Positions 17,771-51,670 of a stretch of 64,000 nt of DNA are shown in pieces (within the stretch, counting starts at the first letter, position 1; each line of letters opens with the position of its first letter). A program made the translations under genes and the position numbers. The notes under the pieces are model-generated. The model did not search any database and was not told the DNA's origin. It saw only the letters and a list, made by a program, of their open reading frames with translations. The stretch lies in contig NZ_JAAGWD010000001.1 of NCBI RefSeq assembly GCF_010686685.1, forward strand, positions 124,001-188,000, read 5' to 3'. The stretch is from Pontibacter burrus (GTDB lineage Bacteria > Bacteroidota > Bacteroidia > Cytophagales > Hymenobacteraceae).

Positions 17771-18312
17771 GTTGTCATCCTGAGCGCTAGTCGAAGGATC
17801 TTATGTGTCCTATAGTTGACTGTAGTTGCAACTGGACAAAAGCAGTTTCTTTTAAATTTCCTATAACCCTGGGAGCTTTACTTACCTATCGTTTTATAGT
17901 TACTTTGGTGCGCTCACGGCCGCGGGGCCTCGTCTTCGGGCATCGCACGGTGTACCTTTCTTTTGCTCCTATCGTCACAATGCCTTACGGCACCAGAAAT
18001 CTACAAGGCGCTCAACCCAAAGACTGAGATCGCTCGATAGCTAAGCTATAGCTTATTAAGCTGCTATAGTTCTGTCGCTTTTTCGTGCTCATAGTTCCTT
18101 AGGGCAGGCTGCGCCTGCCTGCTCGTGGTCTGGAACTATAGCACTATAGGTGAACTATAGCAATGGCAGAAAGTCCCCTCTTGGGAGGGGTAGGGGTGGG
18201 TTAAAAGAGAAACTGTAGAACTATAACTTAACTATAGTAGTAGCAGAAAACTCCCAGCCTTAGACTACCGAGAACGAGAGTTCGAGGGTAGCAAGCGTAG
18301 CTCTGAGGGGTT
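17771..18312 (-). repeat. composite intergenic repeat, copy A (minus orientation)
   Basis: This fills most of the 726-base gap between two minus-strand genes. It is the reverse complement of copies at 22.4, 48.4 and 51.0 kb. The conserved core (17903-18040) runs from C-T-T-T-G-G-T-G-C-G-C-T-C to the reverse of T-T-T-C-A-G-T-C-T-T-T-G-G-G. A tag TCATCCTGAG/CGAAGGATC, a block with GGCAGGCTGCGCCTGCC, a G-rich hairpin (18171-18203) and at least eight CTATAG copies are also present. Open frames in it (for example ending G-A-Q-P-K-D) are not protein-like. Confidence 0.7.
18171..18203. repeat. G/C-rich intergenic hairpin (family ii)
   Basis: TCCCCTCTTGGGAGGGG is a hairpin, followed by TAGGGGTGGGTTA. 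It is the same family as at 22624, 48600, 51237, 58591 and 63527. Confidence 0.65.
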
Positions 18313-22371: not shown

Positions 22372-22550
22372 GTTTTTGTCAGAATCAGGATTTGCAGGAT
22401 TGGGGTTTTGCTGTAGTTAGGCTTATAGCTCTATAGCTGGAGTTGGTCTAACCACTCCTGACCCATCAGAGCTAGGCTCGAACTCTCGTTCTCGGTAGTC
22501 TAAGGCGGGGAGCTCTGAGCCTATGCTATAGTTGGAGCTACAGTTTTATC

Positions 22551-22580
22551 ATCCCCCTACCCCCTTCCAAGGGGGACTTT
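22551..22580. repeat. G/C-rich intergenic hairpin (family i)
   Basis: ATCCCCCTACCCCCTT followed by CCAAGGGGGACTTTC; CCCCCTT pairs with AAGGGGG. The same family occurs at 51173 and 58548. Confidence 0.6.
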
Positions 22581-22623
22581 CTGTCTTTTCTATAGTTATC
22601 GATATCGTTCTATAGTTCGTATC

Positions 22624-22658
22624 TTAACCCACCCCTACCCCTCCCAAAAGGGGAATTC
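22624..22658. repeat. G/C-rich intergenic hairpin (family ii)
   Basis: TTAACCCACCCCTACCCCTC followed by CCAAAAGGGGAATTC; CCCCT pairs with AGGGG. Confidence 0.6.
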
Positions 22659-23261
22659 TGCTGTTGCTATAGTTACTCTATCATTCTATAGTTCCAGACC
22701 ACGAACAGGCGGGCGCAGCCTGCCCTTACGAAATACTACCACGGAAAGGCGATGTAACTATTGTCATTCAACAAACTATAGTGGTAGCTATCGAGTGGTT
22801 TCAGTCTTTGGGTTGAGCGCCTTGTAGATTTCTGGTGCCGTCAGGCATTGCGAGGAACGAGCAAAAGAAAGGTACACCGCGCGATGCCCGAAGACGCGGC
22901 CGTGAGCGCACCAAAGCTAGATATGAAACTGTAGGTTAGTAGAGCTCCCAGGACCAGTAGTTGCTATGAAAGAAACTACTTGTTCCCAGTTGCAACGATG
23001 GTTAGCTATGGAAGGATAGCTTCAACTATAGTTGGCGATAGATTTCTAGCTTAAGCTCGAAATGACAATAGTGAAAGTATAGGATATATAAGATCCCTCG
23101 GCTTACGCTCGTGATGACAAGTAAAAAGTTGACTATACTCCAGACACTCACAAGAGCTGCGCACACTGTGAGGTCTTAAAAAGGAAACAAAATTTATCTT
23201 AAAAAGCTATCAATCTGGCTGGAAATTTGCTTGTTATAACTTGTAATTCGTAACTTAAACT

Positions 23262-31654: not shown

Positions 31655-31778
31655 CGCCCTTGCTCGCCTCTGGCGAGTGTGAGCTACTTTAGTGGTGTCC
31701 CGCCACTTGTGCCTCAGGCACAGTTAAAGCGGCCAGAGTCCGAAGGAAACTCACACTCGCCAGAGGCGAGCGAGGGCG
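31655..31778. repeat. long inverted repeat / composite hairpin
   Basis: The 29-base arms 31655-31683 and 31750-31778 are reverse complements with one mismatch (a G-T pair). Each arm itself contains CTCGCC-TCT-GGCGAG. The 66-base middle has two more hairpins: AGTGG/CCACT (31691-31707) and TGTGCCT-C-AGGCACA (31708-31722). No T-run follows. This is part of the 539-base gap after kynU. Confidence 0.75.
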
Positions 31779-31837: not shown

Positions 31838-31941
31838 TGGCGCGAGCGTCATCGCTCATGTCGAACTATAGCTGGGCCTCCGGCCCAGTTGGATTACAAA
31901 TCCAACACTATAAATAAGTCACGGATCACAGATCCGCGCCA
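31838..31941. repeat. multi-hairpin cassette, copy 1
   Basis: TGGCGCG (31838-31844) can pair with CGCGCCA (31935-31941). Inside are GAGCG/CGCTC, CTGGGCC-TCC-GGCCCAG (31872-31888), TTGGATT-ACA-AATCCAA (31889-31905) and CGGATC-ACA-GATCCG (31922-31936). A CTATAG copy sits between hairpins 1 and 2. Copy 2 is at 35755. The rest of the gap to 32124 is AT-rich with one CTATAG copy (about 31993) and no gene; an open frame at 31889-32098 runs through the hairpins. Confidence 0.75.
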
Positions 31942-32124
31942 GCAGAAGGAGGACATTTACTCAGCCTTCTATACAGTCCTGCTTTACCTTTTCTATAGTT
32001 TAACATCCCATTTCTTTTCTCATTTTCATCAGTCAGCAGCCACTTTTTTTCGATTAATAGCTACCCGGAGCAAAACATTGAGTCGGATTTCAGTATAAAG
32101 AGCAACTACTGTTAAGAATGTTGC

Positions 32125-33594
32125 ATGAGTTTCCCGATCGAAAACATTTTATTAGGTATCTCTATACTGCTGCTGATCAGTATAGTACTTAGTAAAAGTT
32201 TGGGTAAATACGGCATTCCGGCGCTGATACTTTTTATAGGGGTGGGCATGCTGGCTGGCTCAGAAGGCATCGGCAACATCCACTTCAACGATCCTGGGCT
32301 GGCACAGTCGATGGGCACTGTGGCACTTACAATCATTCTCTTCTCTGGCGGCCTCGATACGCGCTGGGAAACAACCAAACCTATCCTCTGGCGGGGCGTC
32401 ATGCTCTCAACTATAGGCGTTTTTATAACGGCTCTGCTGATGGGCCTGTTTGTCTGGTATATTACCGATTTTACTTTATTCGAAGCGCTTTTACTGGGCT
32501 CCATCGTTTCCTCTACCGATGCAGCAGCGGTATTTTCCATACTCCGTTCTAAAAGCATCGGCTTGAAACACAACCTGCGCCCCACCCTGGAGTTTGAGTC
32601 TGGCAGCAACGACCCGATGGCTTATTTCCTGACCGTGAGCTTTACTTACCTGGTGCTGCACGAAGGCCAGGCAAGCTTATGGAACCTGATACCCATGTTT
32701 TTCCTGCAGATGAGCATTGGTGCCGTCATGGGAGTTGTGATGGGCCGGGTTATGGTTTGGGTGATCAACCGTATTTCGTTGCAGCAGGATGGCCTGTACC
32801 CGGCGCTAACCCTGGGTATGGTCATATTTACGTTTGCTTTTACCACGGTTATTAAAGGCAACGGGTTTCTGGCCATTTACATTGCCGGTGTAATACTGGG
32901 CAACCGCAACTTTATTCACCGGGGAAGCCTTATCCGGTTTTACGATGGCCTCGCTTGGCTCATGCAGATTATGATATTCCTGACGCTGGGTTTGCTTGTA
33001 TTCCCCTCGCAGATGATACCAGTACTAGGGACCGGGGTGCTTATATCGGTTTTCCTGATGCTGGTTGCCCGCCCGCTGAGCGTTTTTTTAAGCCTGATCC
33101 CATTCCGCAGCACCCTCCGCGACAAAGTGTATATTTCGTGGGTGGGGTTACGGGGCGCTGTGCCCATTGTGTTTGCCACCTACCCCATGTTGGCCGGTGT
33201 AGAGAAGTCCACCATGATCTTCAATATCGTTTTCTTTATAGTACTCACCTCGGTTATGCTGCAGGGCACTACGCTAACACAGGTGGCAGGGTGGCTGCGC
33301 CTCTCGCGCCGCGACAGGGCTTTAAAGCGGCTGCAGTTGGGCGATGAAATGGGGTATGACATGAAGAATGCACTCGTAGAGATAGAGCTTACCCCAGACA
33401 GCCTGGCAAACGGAAAGTCCATAGTTGAGCTGCAGTTTCCTAAGTCATCGCTGATCGTACTTATAAACCGCGGTGGCAAATACGTAACTCCAAACGGCGC
33501 CACCGTGCTTGAACCCAACGACAAGCTGCTGGTCATGATCGACAACGACAGCGAGTTGGAGAAAGTAAACACAGCGCTGGGAATAACCGTCTAA
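32125..33594 (+). CDS. CPA1-family K+ or Na+/H+ antiporter with C-terminal TrkA-C domain
   Basis: 489 residues. About 12-13 membrane segments form a CPA1 exchanger core: G-I-P-A-L-I-L-F-I-G-V-G-M-L-A-G-S-E-G-I, S-G-G-L-D-T, the ion-site S-S-T-D-A-A-A-V-F and F-E-S-G-S-N-D-P-M. After about 400 residues comes a soluble TrkA-C-like (RCK-C) domain with I-E-L-T-P-D-S-L-A-N-G-K-S-I-V-E-L. This layout matches the NhaP2/CvrA group. It exchanges monovalent cations for protons. It is encoded within the kynurenine locus, but no functional link is evident. Confidence 0.88.
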   Translation: MSFPIENILLGISILLLISIVLSKSLGKYGIPALILFIGVGMLAGSEGIGNIHFNDPGLAQSMGTVALTIILFSGGLDTRWETTKPILWRGVMLSTIGVFITALLMGLFVWYITDFTLFEALLLGSIVSSTDAAAVFSILRSKSIGLKHNLRPTLEFESGSNDPMAYFLTVSFTYLVLHEGQASLWNLIPMFFLQMSIGAVMGVVMGRVMVWVINRISLQQDGLYPALTLGMVIFTFAFTTVIKGNGFLAIYIAGVILGNRNFIHRGSLIRFYDGLAWLMQIMIFLTLGLLVFPSQMIPVLGTGVLISVFLMLVARPLSVFLSLIPFRSTLRDKVYISWVGLRGAVPIVFATYPMLAGVEKSTMIFNIVFFIVLTSVMLQGTTLTQVAGWLRLSRRDRALKRLQLGDEMGYDMKNALVEIELTPDSLANGKSIVELQFPKSSLIVLINRGGKYVTPNGATVLEPNDKLLVMIDNDSELEKVNTALGITV

Positions 33595-33611
33595 ACAACA
33601 AACTATAGTTT

Positions 33612-34202
33612 ATGCACCCTCTCCTCCGGAAATTACCCTTGCCCGATGCCGACGTATGGTATGCCCCCAACTTTTTTAGTGCTGCGGAAAGTGACCTGTA
33701 CTTTACCCAACTACAGCAACAGGTAACCTGGAAGCAGGAAAAGATAAGAATGTTTGGCAAAGAGATGCCGCTGCCCCGCCTCACTGCCTGGTATGGCGAT
33801 AAAGCTTACACATATTCTGGTCTTAAAAATGAGCCGCAACCCTGGCTGCCTGTGCTGCAGCAGTTAAAAACGCAGGTAGAACAAGCCACCAACTATAGCT
33901 ACAACAGCGTGCTGCTGAACCTGTACCCGCACGGGCAAAGCAGCATGGGCTGGCACTCCGACGATGAGCCTGAACTGGGGCCGGAACCAACTATAGCCTC
34001 GGTCAGTTTTGGGGCCGAGCGCAGGTTTGGGTTTAAGCACCGGCACAACAAAGCACAGCAAAACCTGTATTTTACCTTGGTGCACGGCAGTTTACTACTT
34101 ATGCAGGGCCCTACGCAGCGTAACTGGCTTCACAGCATTACCAAAACTACACGCGCTACAGGCCACCGCATCAACCTTACTTTTCGAAACATTCTAAGCT
34201 AA
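33612..34202 (+). CDS. alkB: alpha-ketoglutarate-dependent dioxygenase, AlkB-like
   Basis: 196 residues. Iron ligands H-x-D at His115/Asp117 (G-W-H-S-D-D-E-P) and His174 (N-W-L-H-S-I), and the 2OG-binding R-I-N-L-T-F-R at the C-terminus. The segment L-N-L-Y-P-H-G-Q-S-S-M-G and the size are those of the ALKBH2/3-like bacterial proteins that repair 1-methyladenine and 3-methylcytosine in DNA. ATG at 33612, three bases after an AACTATAGTT copy, 17 bases after the antiporter gene, so probably cotranscribed. The gene encodes several N-Y-S or T-I-A stretches through CTATAG. Confidence 0.88.
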   Translation: MHPLLRKLPLPDADVWYAPNFFSAAESDLYFTQLQQQVTWKQEKIRMFGKEMPLPRLTAWYGDKAYTYSGLKNEPQPWLPVLQQLKTQVEQATNYSYNSVLLNLYPHGQSSMGWHSDDEPELGPEPTIASVSFGAERRFGFKHRHNKAQQNLYFTLVHGSLLLMQGPTQRNWLHSITKTTRATGHRINLTFRNILS

Positions 34203-34278
34203 GCAGCCTATAGATTGTGAAAAATGGAAGGAAAATATTACTTTACAGCAACAGAAGTATAGCCTTATACTTTACCCT

Positions 34279-35676
34279 ATGACGGAAAAAAAGAACATCG
34301 CCATTATGGGAGCCGGATTGGTTGGCTCGCTGCTTTCGTTGTACCTGGCCAAACGCGGCCATAAAATAGACCTTTACGAGCGCAGACCCGATATGCGGGT
34401 GACCACCCTGGATGGCGGCCGTTCGATAAACCTTGCGCTGAGCGACCGTGGCTGGCGCACTTTACGGGGCATCGGCATAGAAGAGGAAGTACGCAAGGTG
34501 GCCATCCCAATGTACGGCCGCATGATGCATAGCGAGAGCGGCGAACTCACATTTCAGCCGTACGGCAAAGAGGGGCAAGCGATTTATTCTGTATCCAGGG
34601 CCGGGCTGAATATGGCGCTGATGAACGTATCGGAGCCTAACGATGACATTACCTATCACTTTAGCCGCCAGGTGCAGGACGTGAACCTTAAAACCGGCGA
34701 GGTATACCTGCGCAACAACGATACTGAATCTACCGAAACTATAAAACCTGACCTCATTTTTGGGGCGGATGGCGCTTTCTCGATGGTGCGGGGTGCCCTG
34801 CAGAAAACCGAGCGCTTCAACTATCAGCAAAGCTACCTGGAGTACGGCTACAAAGAACTGACCATACCGGCTACACCAGATGGCGGCTGGGCGCTGGAGA
34901 AAAATGCGCTGCACATCTGGCCACGTGGCAACTACATGATGATCGCGCTGCCAAACACCGATGGTAGTTTTACCTGTACGTTGTTCTTCCCGTACGAGGG
35001 CGAGCGTTCCTTTGCATCCATCAAAACCGACACCGACCTGCTTAACTTTTTCCTGGAGGTGTTTCCGGATGCAGTGCCGCTAATGCCAGACCTGGCTCAG
35101 GATTATTTCTGCAACCCAACCGGTACGCTGGTAACTATAAAATGTTTCCCGTGGAGTTACGAGGATAAAGTGCTGCTTATTGGCGATGCCAGCCATGCTG
35201 TAGTACCGTTTTACGGACAGGGCATGAATGCCGGCTTCGAAGACATAACAGTGCTGGACCAGATGCTGGAAACCTTTGATGGCGACTGGAAGGGTTTATT
35301 TAAAGCTTTTGAGCAGAGCCGCAAACCCAACGCCGACGCCATTGCCGACCTGGCCGTAATGAACTTTATTGAAATGCGCGATAAGGTGGCTGATCCACGG
35401 TTCCTGCTTCGCAAAAAGATAGAAGGCAAAATAAACGAGCAGTACCCGGATAAGTGGATACCACTCTACTCCATGGTTACGTTCACGGATATGCCTTACT
35501 CTCATGCTCTTGAAACCGGACGCCAGCAGGACAAGATCATGAAAAAGGTAATGAAGCACATCCAGACGATAGAAGACTATAACAAACCGGAAGTGCAGCA
35601 GCTGATTGAAGAGGAGATCATCCACAAAGAGAAACTGAAAGCCTATCAGCAGTCTTCAGTTAGTAGTGATAAGTAA
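34279..35676 (+). CDS. kmo: kynurenine 3-monooxygenase
   Basis: 465 residues, class A flavoprotein monooxygenase. FAD-binding G-A-G-L-V-G-S-L at the N-terminus, G-R-S-I-N-L-A-L-S-D-R-G typical of KMO, D-L-I-F-G-A-D-G-A-F-S and G-D-A-S-H-A-V-V-P-F-Y-G-Q-G-M-N-A-G-F-E-D. The C-terminal part after about 400 residues is the KMO helix region; no obvious membrane anchor is seen. It hydroxylates kynurenine to 3-hydroxykynurenine with NADPH and O2, the step before kynureninase. Confidence 0.93.
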   Translation: MTEKKNIAIMGAGLVGSLLSLYLAKRGHKIDLYERRPDMRVTTLDGGRSINLALSDRGWRTLRGIGIEEEVRKVAIPMYGRMMHSESGELTFQPYGKEGQAIYSVSRAGLNMALMNVSEPNDDITYHFSRQVQDVNLKTGEVYLRNNDTESTETIKPDLIFGADGAFSMVRGALQKTERFNYQQSYLEYGYKELTIPATPDGGWALEKNALHIWPRGNYMMIALPNTDGSFTCTLFFPYEGERSFASIKTDTDLLNFFLEVFPDAVPLMPDLAQDYFCNPTGTLVTIKCFPWSYEDKVLLIGDASHAVVPFYGQGMNAGFEDITVLDQMLETFDGDWKGLFKAFEQSRKPNADAIADLAVMNFIEMRDKVADPRFLLRKKIEGKINEQYPDKWIPLYSMVTFTDMPYSHALETGRQQDKIMKKVMKHIQTIEDYNKPEVQQLIEEEIIHKEKLKAYQQSSVSSDK

Positions 35677-35754
35677 ACAGTAATCAACCTACTCTTTCCC
35701 GCAACTATAGCAGTAGCGGGTAGTATCTCATCATTCTGATTCACCAGATTACTA

Positions 35755-35858
35755 TGGCGCGAGCGTCTTCGCTCGTGTCGAACTATAGCTTGGCCTCCGC
35801 CCCAGTTGGATTGCAAATCCAACACTATAAGTTAGTCACGGACCGCAGATCCGCGCCA
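35755..35858. repeat. multi-hairpin cassette, copy 2
   Basis: TGGCGCG (35755-35761) can pair with CGCGCCA (35852-35858). The same four hairpins follow in the same order and spacing as copy 1: GAGCG/CGCTC with TCTT loop, a degenerate TGGCC-type hairpin, TTGGATT-GCA-AATCCAA (35806-35822) and CGGACC-GCA-GATCCG with one mismatch. A CTATAG copy is again between the first two. Confidence 0.75.
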
Positions 35859-35953
35859 GCAAAAATATCAGACAGCCCCCGAAGTATAAAATCCGCATCA
35901 GATGGCTGGATCAGGCGCAACTGCAAACGCTTGATTGTTAGCCCAGGCATCTG

Positions 35954-48378: not shown

Positions 48379-49032
48379 GTCTGAATCAGAATTTACAGGA
48401 TTAATGGGTTTTCAGGATTTCTGACGATTGCTATAGTTGGAGATATGGGTCTATAGTTAACGTGGTCCACTTCAGGCCTCTGCTCGCTACCTCTGAAATC
48501 GCTTCTCGGTAGTCAATGATTACCTCAACCCTCTCCTGTTCTTAGGAGAGGGAGATTTTAGTCGTTGCTATAGTTTGGGCTTCAGTTTTATAGTTAGCAT
48601 TAACCCACCCCTACCCCTCCCGAGAGAGGAATTGCTGCCACAGCTACAGCTTGTGATATAGTTCAATAGTTACAGATCACGAACAGGCAGGCGCAACCTG
48701 ACACAAGAAACTATAACCACGAAAAGGCTACAGCACTATAGCTATTGAAATAAACTATAGCTTAACTATCGAGCGATTTCAGTCTTTGGGTTGAGCGCCT
48801 CGAGAGGTTCCGGTGCCGATAGGCATGGCGAGGGACGAGCAAAAGAAAGGTACACCGCGCGATGCCCGAAGACGGGGCCTCGCGGCCGGGAGCGCACCAA
48901 AGTAACTATAGCACAATTGGTAAGTAAAGCTCCCAGGATCAGTAGTGGCTATGAAAGAAGCTGCTTGTGTCATGTAGTAACTATAGTTAGCTATAAGACG
49001 CATAAGATGTCTCGACTAACGCTCTACATGAC
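48379..49032 (+). repeat. composite intergenic repeat, copy C
   Basis: This occupies most of the 965 bases between proS and the NfeD-like gene. Order as in copy B: GTCTGAATCAGAATTTAC tag (48379), a CCCTCTCCT/AGGAGAGGG hairpin (about 48528-48552), G/C-rich hairpin (48600), GATCACGAACAGGCAGGCGC block (about 48667), ACCACGAAAAGGCTACAG, core (48766-48902), CTCCCAGGATCAGTAG and the end block GATGTCTCGACTAACGCTC. The rest (49033-49239) is AT-rich with no gene seen. At least eight CTATAG copies. Confidence 0.75.
48600..48633. repeat. G/C-rich intergenic hairpin (family ii)
   Basis: TTAACCCACCCCTACCCCTC then CCGAGAGAGGAATT; the same family as at 22624, with a weaker stem. Confidence 0.55.
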
Positions 49033-50768: not shown

Positions 50769-51172
50769 ATTTGCACGGGGACCAGTGATTTGGGGATTTT
50801 TCAGATTCATAAGATTAAGTTGTTGCTATAGTTTCAACCCTTCCCCTTTTGTCGAGAGTCCCCCCAAACAGGGAAAGGAGGTTCTGCTGTAGTTCTATAG
50901 TTGCCGCAGTAATTCATTTCGCTGCCGCGGGTTTATAACTTGCGTCAAACGATAGGGTTAAGTTTGTAACGCAACTGGACCAGAAAGGACAGGAATTTGT
51001 CTGAATCAGGATTTGGGATGTTGCTATAGTTGCAATTATGGTTCTATAGCTACTGTCGCAACACCCCTGTGAGCTACGCTCGCAAGCTTCGAACTCCCAT
51101 TCTCACTTGTCCTCAAGGGGCAGTTTCTGTCGATGCTATAGTTTAGGCTATCTTTCTATAGCTAGCGCTTGT

Positions 51173-51202
51173 GACCCCCTACCCCCTTCGAAGGGGGACT
51201 TT
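51173..51202. repeat. G/C-rich intergenic hairpin (family i)
   Basis: GACCCCCTACCCCCTTCG then AAGGGGGACTTT; CCCCCTT pairs with AAGGGGG. Confidence 0.65.
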
Positions 51203-51236
51203 GAGCTGTTGCTATAGTTAGTACTATAGTTGGCAA

Positions 51237-51270
51237 TTAACCCACCCCTGCCCCCTCCCGAGAGGGGAAT
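51237..51270. repeat. G/C-rich intergenic hairpin (family ii)
   Basis: TTAACCCACCCCTGCCCCCT then CCCGAGAGGGGAAT; CCCCT pairs with AGGGG. Confidence 0.65.
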
Positions 51271-51670
51271 AGTTGCCTTTGCTTTAGTTGCAGCTATAGT
51301 TCTATAGTTACAGACCATGAGCAGGGCAGGTTTACCTGTCCATAAGGAACTACTACCACGAAAAGGCTACAGAACTATAGCCATAGATCAAACTATAGCT
51401 GTAGCTATCGAAAGATTTCAGTCTTTGGGTTGAGCGCCTTGTAGATTTCTGGTGCCGAAAGGCATTGTGACGTAGGAACAAAAGAAATGTACACCGCGCG
51501 ATGCCCGAAGACAGGGCCCCGCGGCCGTGAGCGCACCAAAGCAACTATAAAACGGTAGGCTTGTAGAGCTCCCAGGATAAGTGGTAACTATAGCATAAAC
51601 TACTTGTGGCAAGTAGCAACTATAGTTAACTATAGGCCAAATAAGATGTCTCGACTGCGATTAACTAAAA

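Follow-up and report, generated by a model that had tools for sequence, protein, structure and literature searches.

Two four-hairpin cassettes beside kynurenine genes of Pontibacter burrus are copies of a dispersed, probably transposase-moved element with ends of two kinds

Our analysis of a 64,000-nt stretch of the Pontibacter burrus genome (hereafter the window; assembly GCF_010686685.1, contig NZ_JAAGWD010000001.1, positions 124,001 to 188,000 of the forward strand) concerns two cassettes of four short hairpins each, one next to kynU and one next to kmo, which are two of about two dozen dispersed copies of a short, probably transposase-moved DNA element. What sets this element apart, judged from sequence comparison, is that each of its two ends matches the ends of a different transposase gene. 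We consider it likely that it represents a non-autonomous REPIN, a doublet of repetitive extragenic palindromes (REPs), with mixed ends, amplified and scattered by REP-associated tyrosine transposases (RAYTs) that resemble subclass 2.6 of this family. The placement of copies at kynU and kmo looks like coincidence.

Both cassettes measure 104 nt from TGGCG to CGCCA, are followed by GCA, and are identical at 95 of the 104 bases. Copy 1 lies 253 nt downstream of kynU, ahead of an antiporter gene, and copy 2 lies 79 nt downstream of kmo, in the gap to a convergent open reading frame (ORF) of 207 amino acids, which we take to encode 3-hydroxyanthranilate dioxygenase. Pfam matches back the neighbours as kynureninase, FAD-binding monooxygenase and antiporter. 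The two copies are composed as follows, with the parts of copy 1 named after the end modules discussed below:

31838..31944, + strand: element copy 1 with GCA tail, in the gap between kynU and the Na+/H+ antiporter gene; covariance model score 129 bits
31843..31858, + strand: copy 1, hairpin 1, belonging to the type-C-like end
31866..31871, + strand: copy 1, CTATAG, the linker of the left end module
31873..31887, + strand: copy 1, hairpin 2, the inner hairpin of the type-C-like end
31888..31906, + strand: copy 1, hairpin 3, the inner hairpin of the right module
31922..31944, + strand: copy 1, hairpin 4 with CGCCA and the GCA tail, the type-A-like terminal hairpin
35755..35861, + strand: element copy 2 with GCA tail, in the convergent gap between kmo and the 207-amino-acid ORF; covariance model score 117 bits
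35760..35775, + strand: copy 2, hairpin 1
35783..35788, + strand: copy 2, CTATAG
35790..35804, + strand: copy 2, hairpin 2, two pairs broken
35805..35823, + strand: copy 2, hairpin 3
35839..35861, + strand: copy 2, hairpin 4 (one broken pair) with CGCCA and the GCA tail

The initial annotation of this DNA had placed cassettes of equal length at 31838-31941 and 35755-35858, with four hairpins and complementary ends in both, a CTATAG between hairpins 1 and 2, and a loop change from ACA to GCA in hairpins 3 and 4; each of these points is borne out. Its further suggestion, that structure seems conserved over sequence, is not confirmed by comparison of the two copies: among their nine differences are three that disrupt stem pairs of copy 2 and one that re-forms a pair, with no compensatory change, so that no such conservation is visible between them. 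Folded as single strands, both cassettes beat all 200 of their own shuffles (RNA z -5.9 for copy 1 and -3.5 for copy 2); for copy 2 the top predicted fold differs from the four-hairpin form. The CTATAG of the cassettes is by itself not special here, because this hexamer is frequent across the window, where it is the commonest of all (154 occurrences, or 24 per 10 kb; fourth-order expectation 112). Its density at the locus of Pontibacter strain Tf4 is similar, at 26 per 10 kb, and it is rare at three other Pontibacter loci (0.7-2.2 per 10 kb).

Copies of the element are dispersed over the genome. A BLAST search of the P. burrus genome with the cassette returned at least 32 matches (40 of 50 candidates scored), and a covariance model built on 22 aligned copies from the same genome returned at least 54 at an E value of 0.1 or better (150 of 4301 candidates scored), among them 24 above 68 bits, referred to here as strong copies. 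The alignment, A1, comprises 22 of these 24, L019 and L254 having been left out, and the partial or weak copies L019, L021 and L023-L030 were excluded from it (L numbers denote individual loci and G numbers genomes). The flanks of the copies appear unrelated and the ends of the element are sharp. With the same model, a match was obtained in 44 of 50 genomes of the genus at an E value of 0.001, in 27 of them at better than 1e-10. A survey of 150 genomes from six genera of the family gave 29 with a match at 1e-8, every one in Pontibacter, and 101 unlisted genomes among the 150 had no match at this threshold. Counts per genome are lower bounds, given strict filters and limits on candidates.

The covariation test that had been proposed for the element was run on the 22 aligned copies. 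The annotated structure pairs in 92.8% of cells, and 18 cells are changed on both sides of a pair against a mean of 5.8 in shuffled alignments, none of 500 shuffles reaching 18; slid along the alignment, the structure yields at most 6 such cells. Counted by pairs, six show a change on both sides against 3.6 in the shuffles, 32 of 500 of which reach six. This support is located in hairpins 2, 3 and 4, and hairpin 1, the closing stem (5 pairs) and the inner TATAG stem (five pairs) have no both-side change at all. A structured, dispersed element is supported. The multi-branch junction that the annotation had seen in the pairing of the two ends fares differently: the ends are complementary because both belong to one kind of hairpin end, present in opposite orientations, and, with no covariation in the five pairs of the closing stem, selection for such a junction is not established.

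A wider set of 98 copies from 20 genomes, consisting of the 22 own copies and 76 taken from the best listed matches and hence not a random sample, shows how the stems vary. The loop-closing pair of hairpin 2 is reversed in 14 of the 98 copies, and hairpins 3 and 4 widely switch pair types. One conserved mismatch sits at each end, G·T in 95 and A·C in 91 copies. As a conserved pairing, the inner TATAG stem was discarded as weak: its pairs 30-75, 33-72 and 34-71 often mispair or wobble. The stem sequences of hairpins 3 and 4 are matched within genomes (mutual information 0.72 versus 0.31, reached in none of 5000 within-genome permutations; 71 of the 98 copies usable), a pattern to which common descent of subfamilies can add. 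The two stems co-vary within genomes as GGAT- and GAGT- types.

What is the origin of the two ends? The P. burrus genome contains three Y1-transposase genes, two of them intact (L031 and L032) and the third (L033), of a kind that we call type A, apparently disrupted by a further palindromic repeat that inserted into it; close relatives of L033 occur in other Pontibacter genomes. The Pfam family Y1_Tnp was matched in all three RAYTs scanned. Type-A genes are flanked by GGCACGAGC-loop-GCTCGCGCCAGC hairpins with an A·C mismatch, the same kind of end mismatch as in the element, and by eye these hairpins form an inverted pair (A-A) upstream of the gene at 13 of 20 loci. Genes of a second kind, type C, lie between inverted copies of the left half of the element, which mostly have the flank A|TGGCG...CGCCA|T; in P. 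burrus itself a lone type-C-like end was found (L026). The proteins of the two types are about 46% identical, which is not above the identity of type A with L031 or L032.

When the halves of the element were compared with 63 RAYT loci (55 distinct), the matches split by type. The right terminus, hairpin 4 with CGCGCCAGC[AG], matches all 21 distinct type-A loci (L069-L089; the best match at each runs over 25-34 nt with 86-96% identity) and none of the type-C loci compared. The left half matches both sides in full at nine of the 12 type-C loci, a set defined by protein identity of 69% or more (the nine, L263-L271, all reach 74% or more, and one side of L265 is shortened); the match is partial on both sides of L272 and confined to one side of L274, and one side of a 56% relative, L275, matches as well. 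No type-A locus compared has a match to the left half, nor has any of 25 other RAYT entries (21 distinct), among which the right half finds a single weak match, far from the gene of L285. As a control, terminal motifs were counted: type-A loci contain 49 in 64.6 kb, loci of other RAYTs (L090-L098) contain 0 in 28.7 kb, and kynurenine monooxygenase (KMO) loci contain 30 in 501 kb. L032 and L288 contain matches to the core of hairpin 3, which is identical over 16-17 nt to hairpins beside the P. burrus RAYT L032 (weak, E 0.002-0.007).

Symmetric elements with two type-C ends (C-C) exist as well. In all nine fetched pairs, picked as listed inverted pairs, the order is hairpin 1, linker, hairpin 2 and spacer, then the same series inverted, with longer spacers in L300 and L301 (the unit ends of L294, L295, L296 and L301 were read by eye from the sequence). 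Their right half has the layout of the mixed element's right half, namely hairpin, TATAG, CACG, hairpin and CGCGCCA or near, so that the mixed element resembles a C-type layout whose right terminal hairpin and tail are of type A. Related elements (L023, L024, L027, L028, L030 and L099:7498-7618) keep hairpins 3 and 4 and have hairpins 1 and 2 swapped for another module, which is often TGTCCCTGCCGGGCCAG-like.

The base ahead of TGGCG is A in 85 of the 98 copies, within YTA or YCA in 59, and in six copies TGC precedes TGGCG, which renders the two ends symmetric. With the ends of the element fixed, none of the 98 copies has a target-site duplication of 3 nt or more, the hallmark of classical miniature inverted-repeat elements moved by DDE transposases. 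A weak purine-rich consensus (about ARTGGRGAATGAAA), seen by eye beyond the right end of many copies, may be what is left of a longer tail. Placement among called ORFs of 90 amino acids or more was tested for 23 of the 24 strong own copies, none of which lies inside one. Their 23 gaps comprise 14 convergent, 9 tandem and no divergent ones, compared with 4, 15 and 9, respectively, among 28 gaps between ORFs of 120 amino acids or more in the window (Fisher p 0.001 for convergent and 0.003 for divergent). At 19 loci of relatives the figures are 7 convergent, 10 tandem, 1 divergent and 1 undetermined. Orientation relative to replication was set aside as too weak to use: in G028 and G019, the direction of the fork is shared by 17 of the 24 strong copies (p 0.06), in a hand count with hand-picked cut-offs of 65 and 61 bits, the origin placed at dnaA and the terminus assumed opposite.

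Individual sites differ between species. In Tf4, the source of the nearest named KMO relative (94%), the gap between kynU and the antiporter gene holds no copy and spans about 140 nt, compared with about 540 nt in P. burrus; conversely, a full copy follows directly after an aldehyde dehydrogenase gene of Tf4, a site without a copy in P. burrus. Such presence and absence bears on mobilization by a RAYT only indirectly.

Taken together with the end matches, these observations lead us to favor a mixed-end REPIN that would work as follows. RAYTs of the Y1/HuH class would move a unit made of two terminal hairpin modules of the REP type, inverted relative to each other. The left module (hairpin 1, CTATAG and hairpin 2, with the flank mostly A|TGGCG) resembles the ends of type-C RAYT units, and the right terminus (hairpin 4) resembles the hairpins at type-A RAYT loci. 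A RAYT would bind the terminal hairpins in single-stranded DNA, the conserved mismatch and the tail presumably serving as recognition marks, excise the unit, and re-insert it next to a YYA-like site without duplicating the target. The copies on the kynU and kmo sides would have landed there by chance.

How does the element compare with known systems? We refer here to excerpts of the cited papers. REPINs are described as REP doublets forming hairpins (PMC3116915), and the Pontibacter element resembles them in its two inverted REP-type hairpins with a spacer, its length of about 100 nt, its many extragenic, non-coding copies between genes, and the related hairpins that flank RAYT genes, in this case in relatives. 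Unlike the REPINs of those excerpts, its ends match two RAYT types, its spacer contains two further hairpins inside a weak TATAG stem, it lacks a conserved GTAG foot and its host belongs to the Bacteroidetes. Excerpts of PMC6006769 assign Bacteroidetes RAYTs to TnpA-REP subclass 2.6, equated with RAYT group 5, and characterize them by NH[LIV]H, WQ and YIH[QN]NP motifs, a length of about 179 amino acids and atypical flanking hairpins that lack GT[AG]G and have copies elsewhere in the genome. Since GT[AG]G is reported absent there, the foot is not a defining feature of this subclass. The Pontibacter system agrees in its Bacteroidetes host, in RAYTs of about 180 amino acids with HxH, WQ and YI..NP motifs, and in flanking hairpins without GT[AG]G that recur elsewhere in the genome. 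All three published motifs are present in L031; L032 carries YIHYNP, most type-A proteins carry SHVH, and type C carries SHLH and YIEQNP, types A and C each diverging from a motif as published. The excerpts of PMC6006769 call the hairpins only atypical and describe neither a unit of about 106 nt nor mixed ends nor symmetric C-C elements.

Two further likenesses deserve mention. RAYT genes bounded by terminal inverted repeats (TIRs), together with TIR repeat families, are described in PMC3733652, and type-C genes likewise lie within inverted repeats of about 50 nt that also occur as short stand-alone elements; elements whose ends come from two gene types do not appear in the excerpts of that paper, whereas half of the Pontibacter element matches another RAYT type. 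Heterodimeric REPs, such as the E. coli y-z bacterial interspersed mosaic elements (BIMEs) and GTAG-3 dimers (excerpts of PMC8266576, PMC6006769 and PMC3733652), share with our element unlike, inversely paired hairpins and conserved stem mismatches. The E. coli y and z REPs surround a single TnpA-REP gene, whereas the Pontibacter ends match two RAYTs of the divergence given above. According to the excerpts of PMC8266576, the E. coli RAYT processes REP hairpins in single-stranded DNA of one orientation and depends on the conserved mismatch in their stem, and the spread of REPs by RAYTs is still poorly understood. In the literature that we covered in part, judging by titles and the openings of abstracts, there is no report of Pontibacter REPINs or of elements ended by two RAYTs. 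The units described here (A-A, C-C and mixed), with their sharp ends, conserved mismatches and genus-wide record of copies, give the hairpins of the Bacteroidetes RAYT subclass a concrete shape, and the mixed element allows a direct test of whether two unlike ends are handled by one RAYT or by a pair.

Several observations weigh against a mixed-end REPIN. The type-A gene of P. burrus appears broken, and no type-C gene was found in this genome, where the lone type-C-like end is the one trace. Across genomes, copies track RAYTs loosely: good copies occur in 19 of 27 genomes with traces of type A and in 8 of 23 without (p 0.02), and they are present in 6 of 12 genomes with type C and in 21 of 38 without it (p 1.0), so that type C alone was dropped as a predictor of copies. 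G036 and G047 carry type A and have zero copies; G014 has at least 19 copies at 1e-8 and no type A; and G038, G019 and G028, with at least 26, 12 and 13 copies, respectively, have no type C. The type-C locus L273 lacks a left-half match, and L274, as mentioned, has one on one side only. A GT[AG]G foot is present in 3 of 86 scored copies, the 12 of 98 without CACG before hairpin 4 having been left out. Hairpin 3 fits neither type-A nor type-C ends, and the two types show no greater similarity to one another than to the other RAYTs compared. Weak model matches in genomes with type C only could be symmetric C-C elements.

A tentative and rather unlikely extension of the mixed-end REPIN is that both RAYTs spread the element jointly, as a mixed dimer or complex, so that it would multiply where both are present. 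Good copies occur in five of six genomes with traces of both RAYTs; the figures are one of six for genomes that have type C alone (p 0.08) and 22 of 44 for the remaining genomes taken together (p 0.20). The matched stems of hairpins 3 and 4 also look as though a single protein needs to read the two. Against a need for both RAYTs stand the copy-rich G014, which has no type A, G038, G019 and G028, which have no type C, and G036 and G047, with type A and zero copies.

Rather unlikely, in our judgment, is that the element is not mixed at all and that an unseen RAYT lineage owns both modules as its left and right ends, the matches to types A and C reflecting common ancestry. The two ends do share, by eye, the layout of hairpin, TATAG linker, CACG hairpin and CGCGCCA, and such a lineage would accommodate both the misfit of hairpin 3, which recurs in the doublets of the P. 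burrus RAYT L032, and the many copies in G014 in the absence of type A. Yet the end matches split by protein type, and no locus with both modules exists among the 63 RAYT loci compared, which are a part of the RAYT loci of the genus.

A role at RNA 3' ends acquired after the spread, as terminator, mRNA stabilizer or processing site, is improbable. The placement of copies on the 3' side of genes, in P. burrus as in relatives, and the strong folding would suit it. Mispairs in the 98 copies point the same way at first sight (149 G·T versus 80 A·C in total, and 19 versus 6 in hairpin 4 alone), but 74 of the G·T cases come from a single constant pair in the inner stem, and without this stem the balance is 72 to 54 (p 0.13), short of the strong G·U excess expected for a strand-specific RNA. 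Moreover, in tandem gaps of P. burrus and relatives 8 copies run with the genes and 11 against them, and placement on the 3' side is usual for REPs, too. Given near-balanced mispairs outside the inner stem and mixed orientation, a strand-specific RNA role is not supported.

It is very improbable that the element regulates the kynurenine pathway, as the initial annotation had considered on finding two copies within 4 kb, adjoining kynU and kmo. Many copies scattered away from such genes would, it noted, refute this link and leave the structured element untouched, and the genome search returned 22 further strong copies elsewhere. Neither is the element conserved at the kyn loci of relatives. Of 81 sources, made up of 80 KMO loci plus the window, six contain model matches with E values up to 0.5: the window, L099, L100, L101, L111 and L113. 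Among 39 KMO loci from Pontibacter and near genera, a kmo-side match at this threshold is present in one, that of Tf4 (L099), and there it is a different, partly related element amid unlike flanking DNA. A conserved kynurenine link is refuted by the dispersed copies together with this absence. An origin from tRNA-Cys or another tRNA-like sequence, suggested only by a visual resemblance to tRNA features (an acceptor-like GGCGCG/CGCGCC and an anticodon-arm-like GGATTGCAAATCC), has a negligible probability and was rejected, as ARAGORN found no tRNA in 30 of 30 loci or in the window, Rfam gave no window match above the gathering score, and a tRNA-Cys-like probe matched just hairpin cores of 15-19 nt.

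The window contains other repeats. Repeats of the palindromic AACCCACCCCTACCCCTCC...GGAGGGG type occur often (22546, 22624, 48600, 51168, 51237, 58545, 63527 and others), and a repeat like these appears to interrupt the type-A RAYT gene of P. burrus. A larger dispersed repeat family occupies 17857-18292, 22408-23009, 48428-49017 and 51021-51656, with conserved blocks of up to 180-255 nt in these four places and in both orientations. Finally, the gap from kynU to copy 1 contains another multi-hairpin element, at 31655-31778, whose ends match the inverted flanks of a further RAYT type (L276, L277 and L290; E values down to 4e-12).

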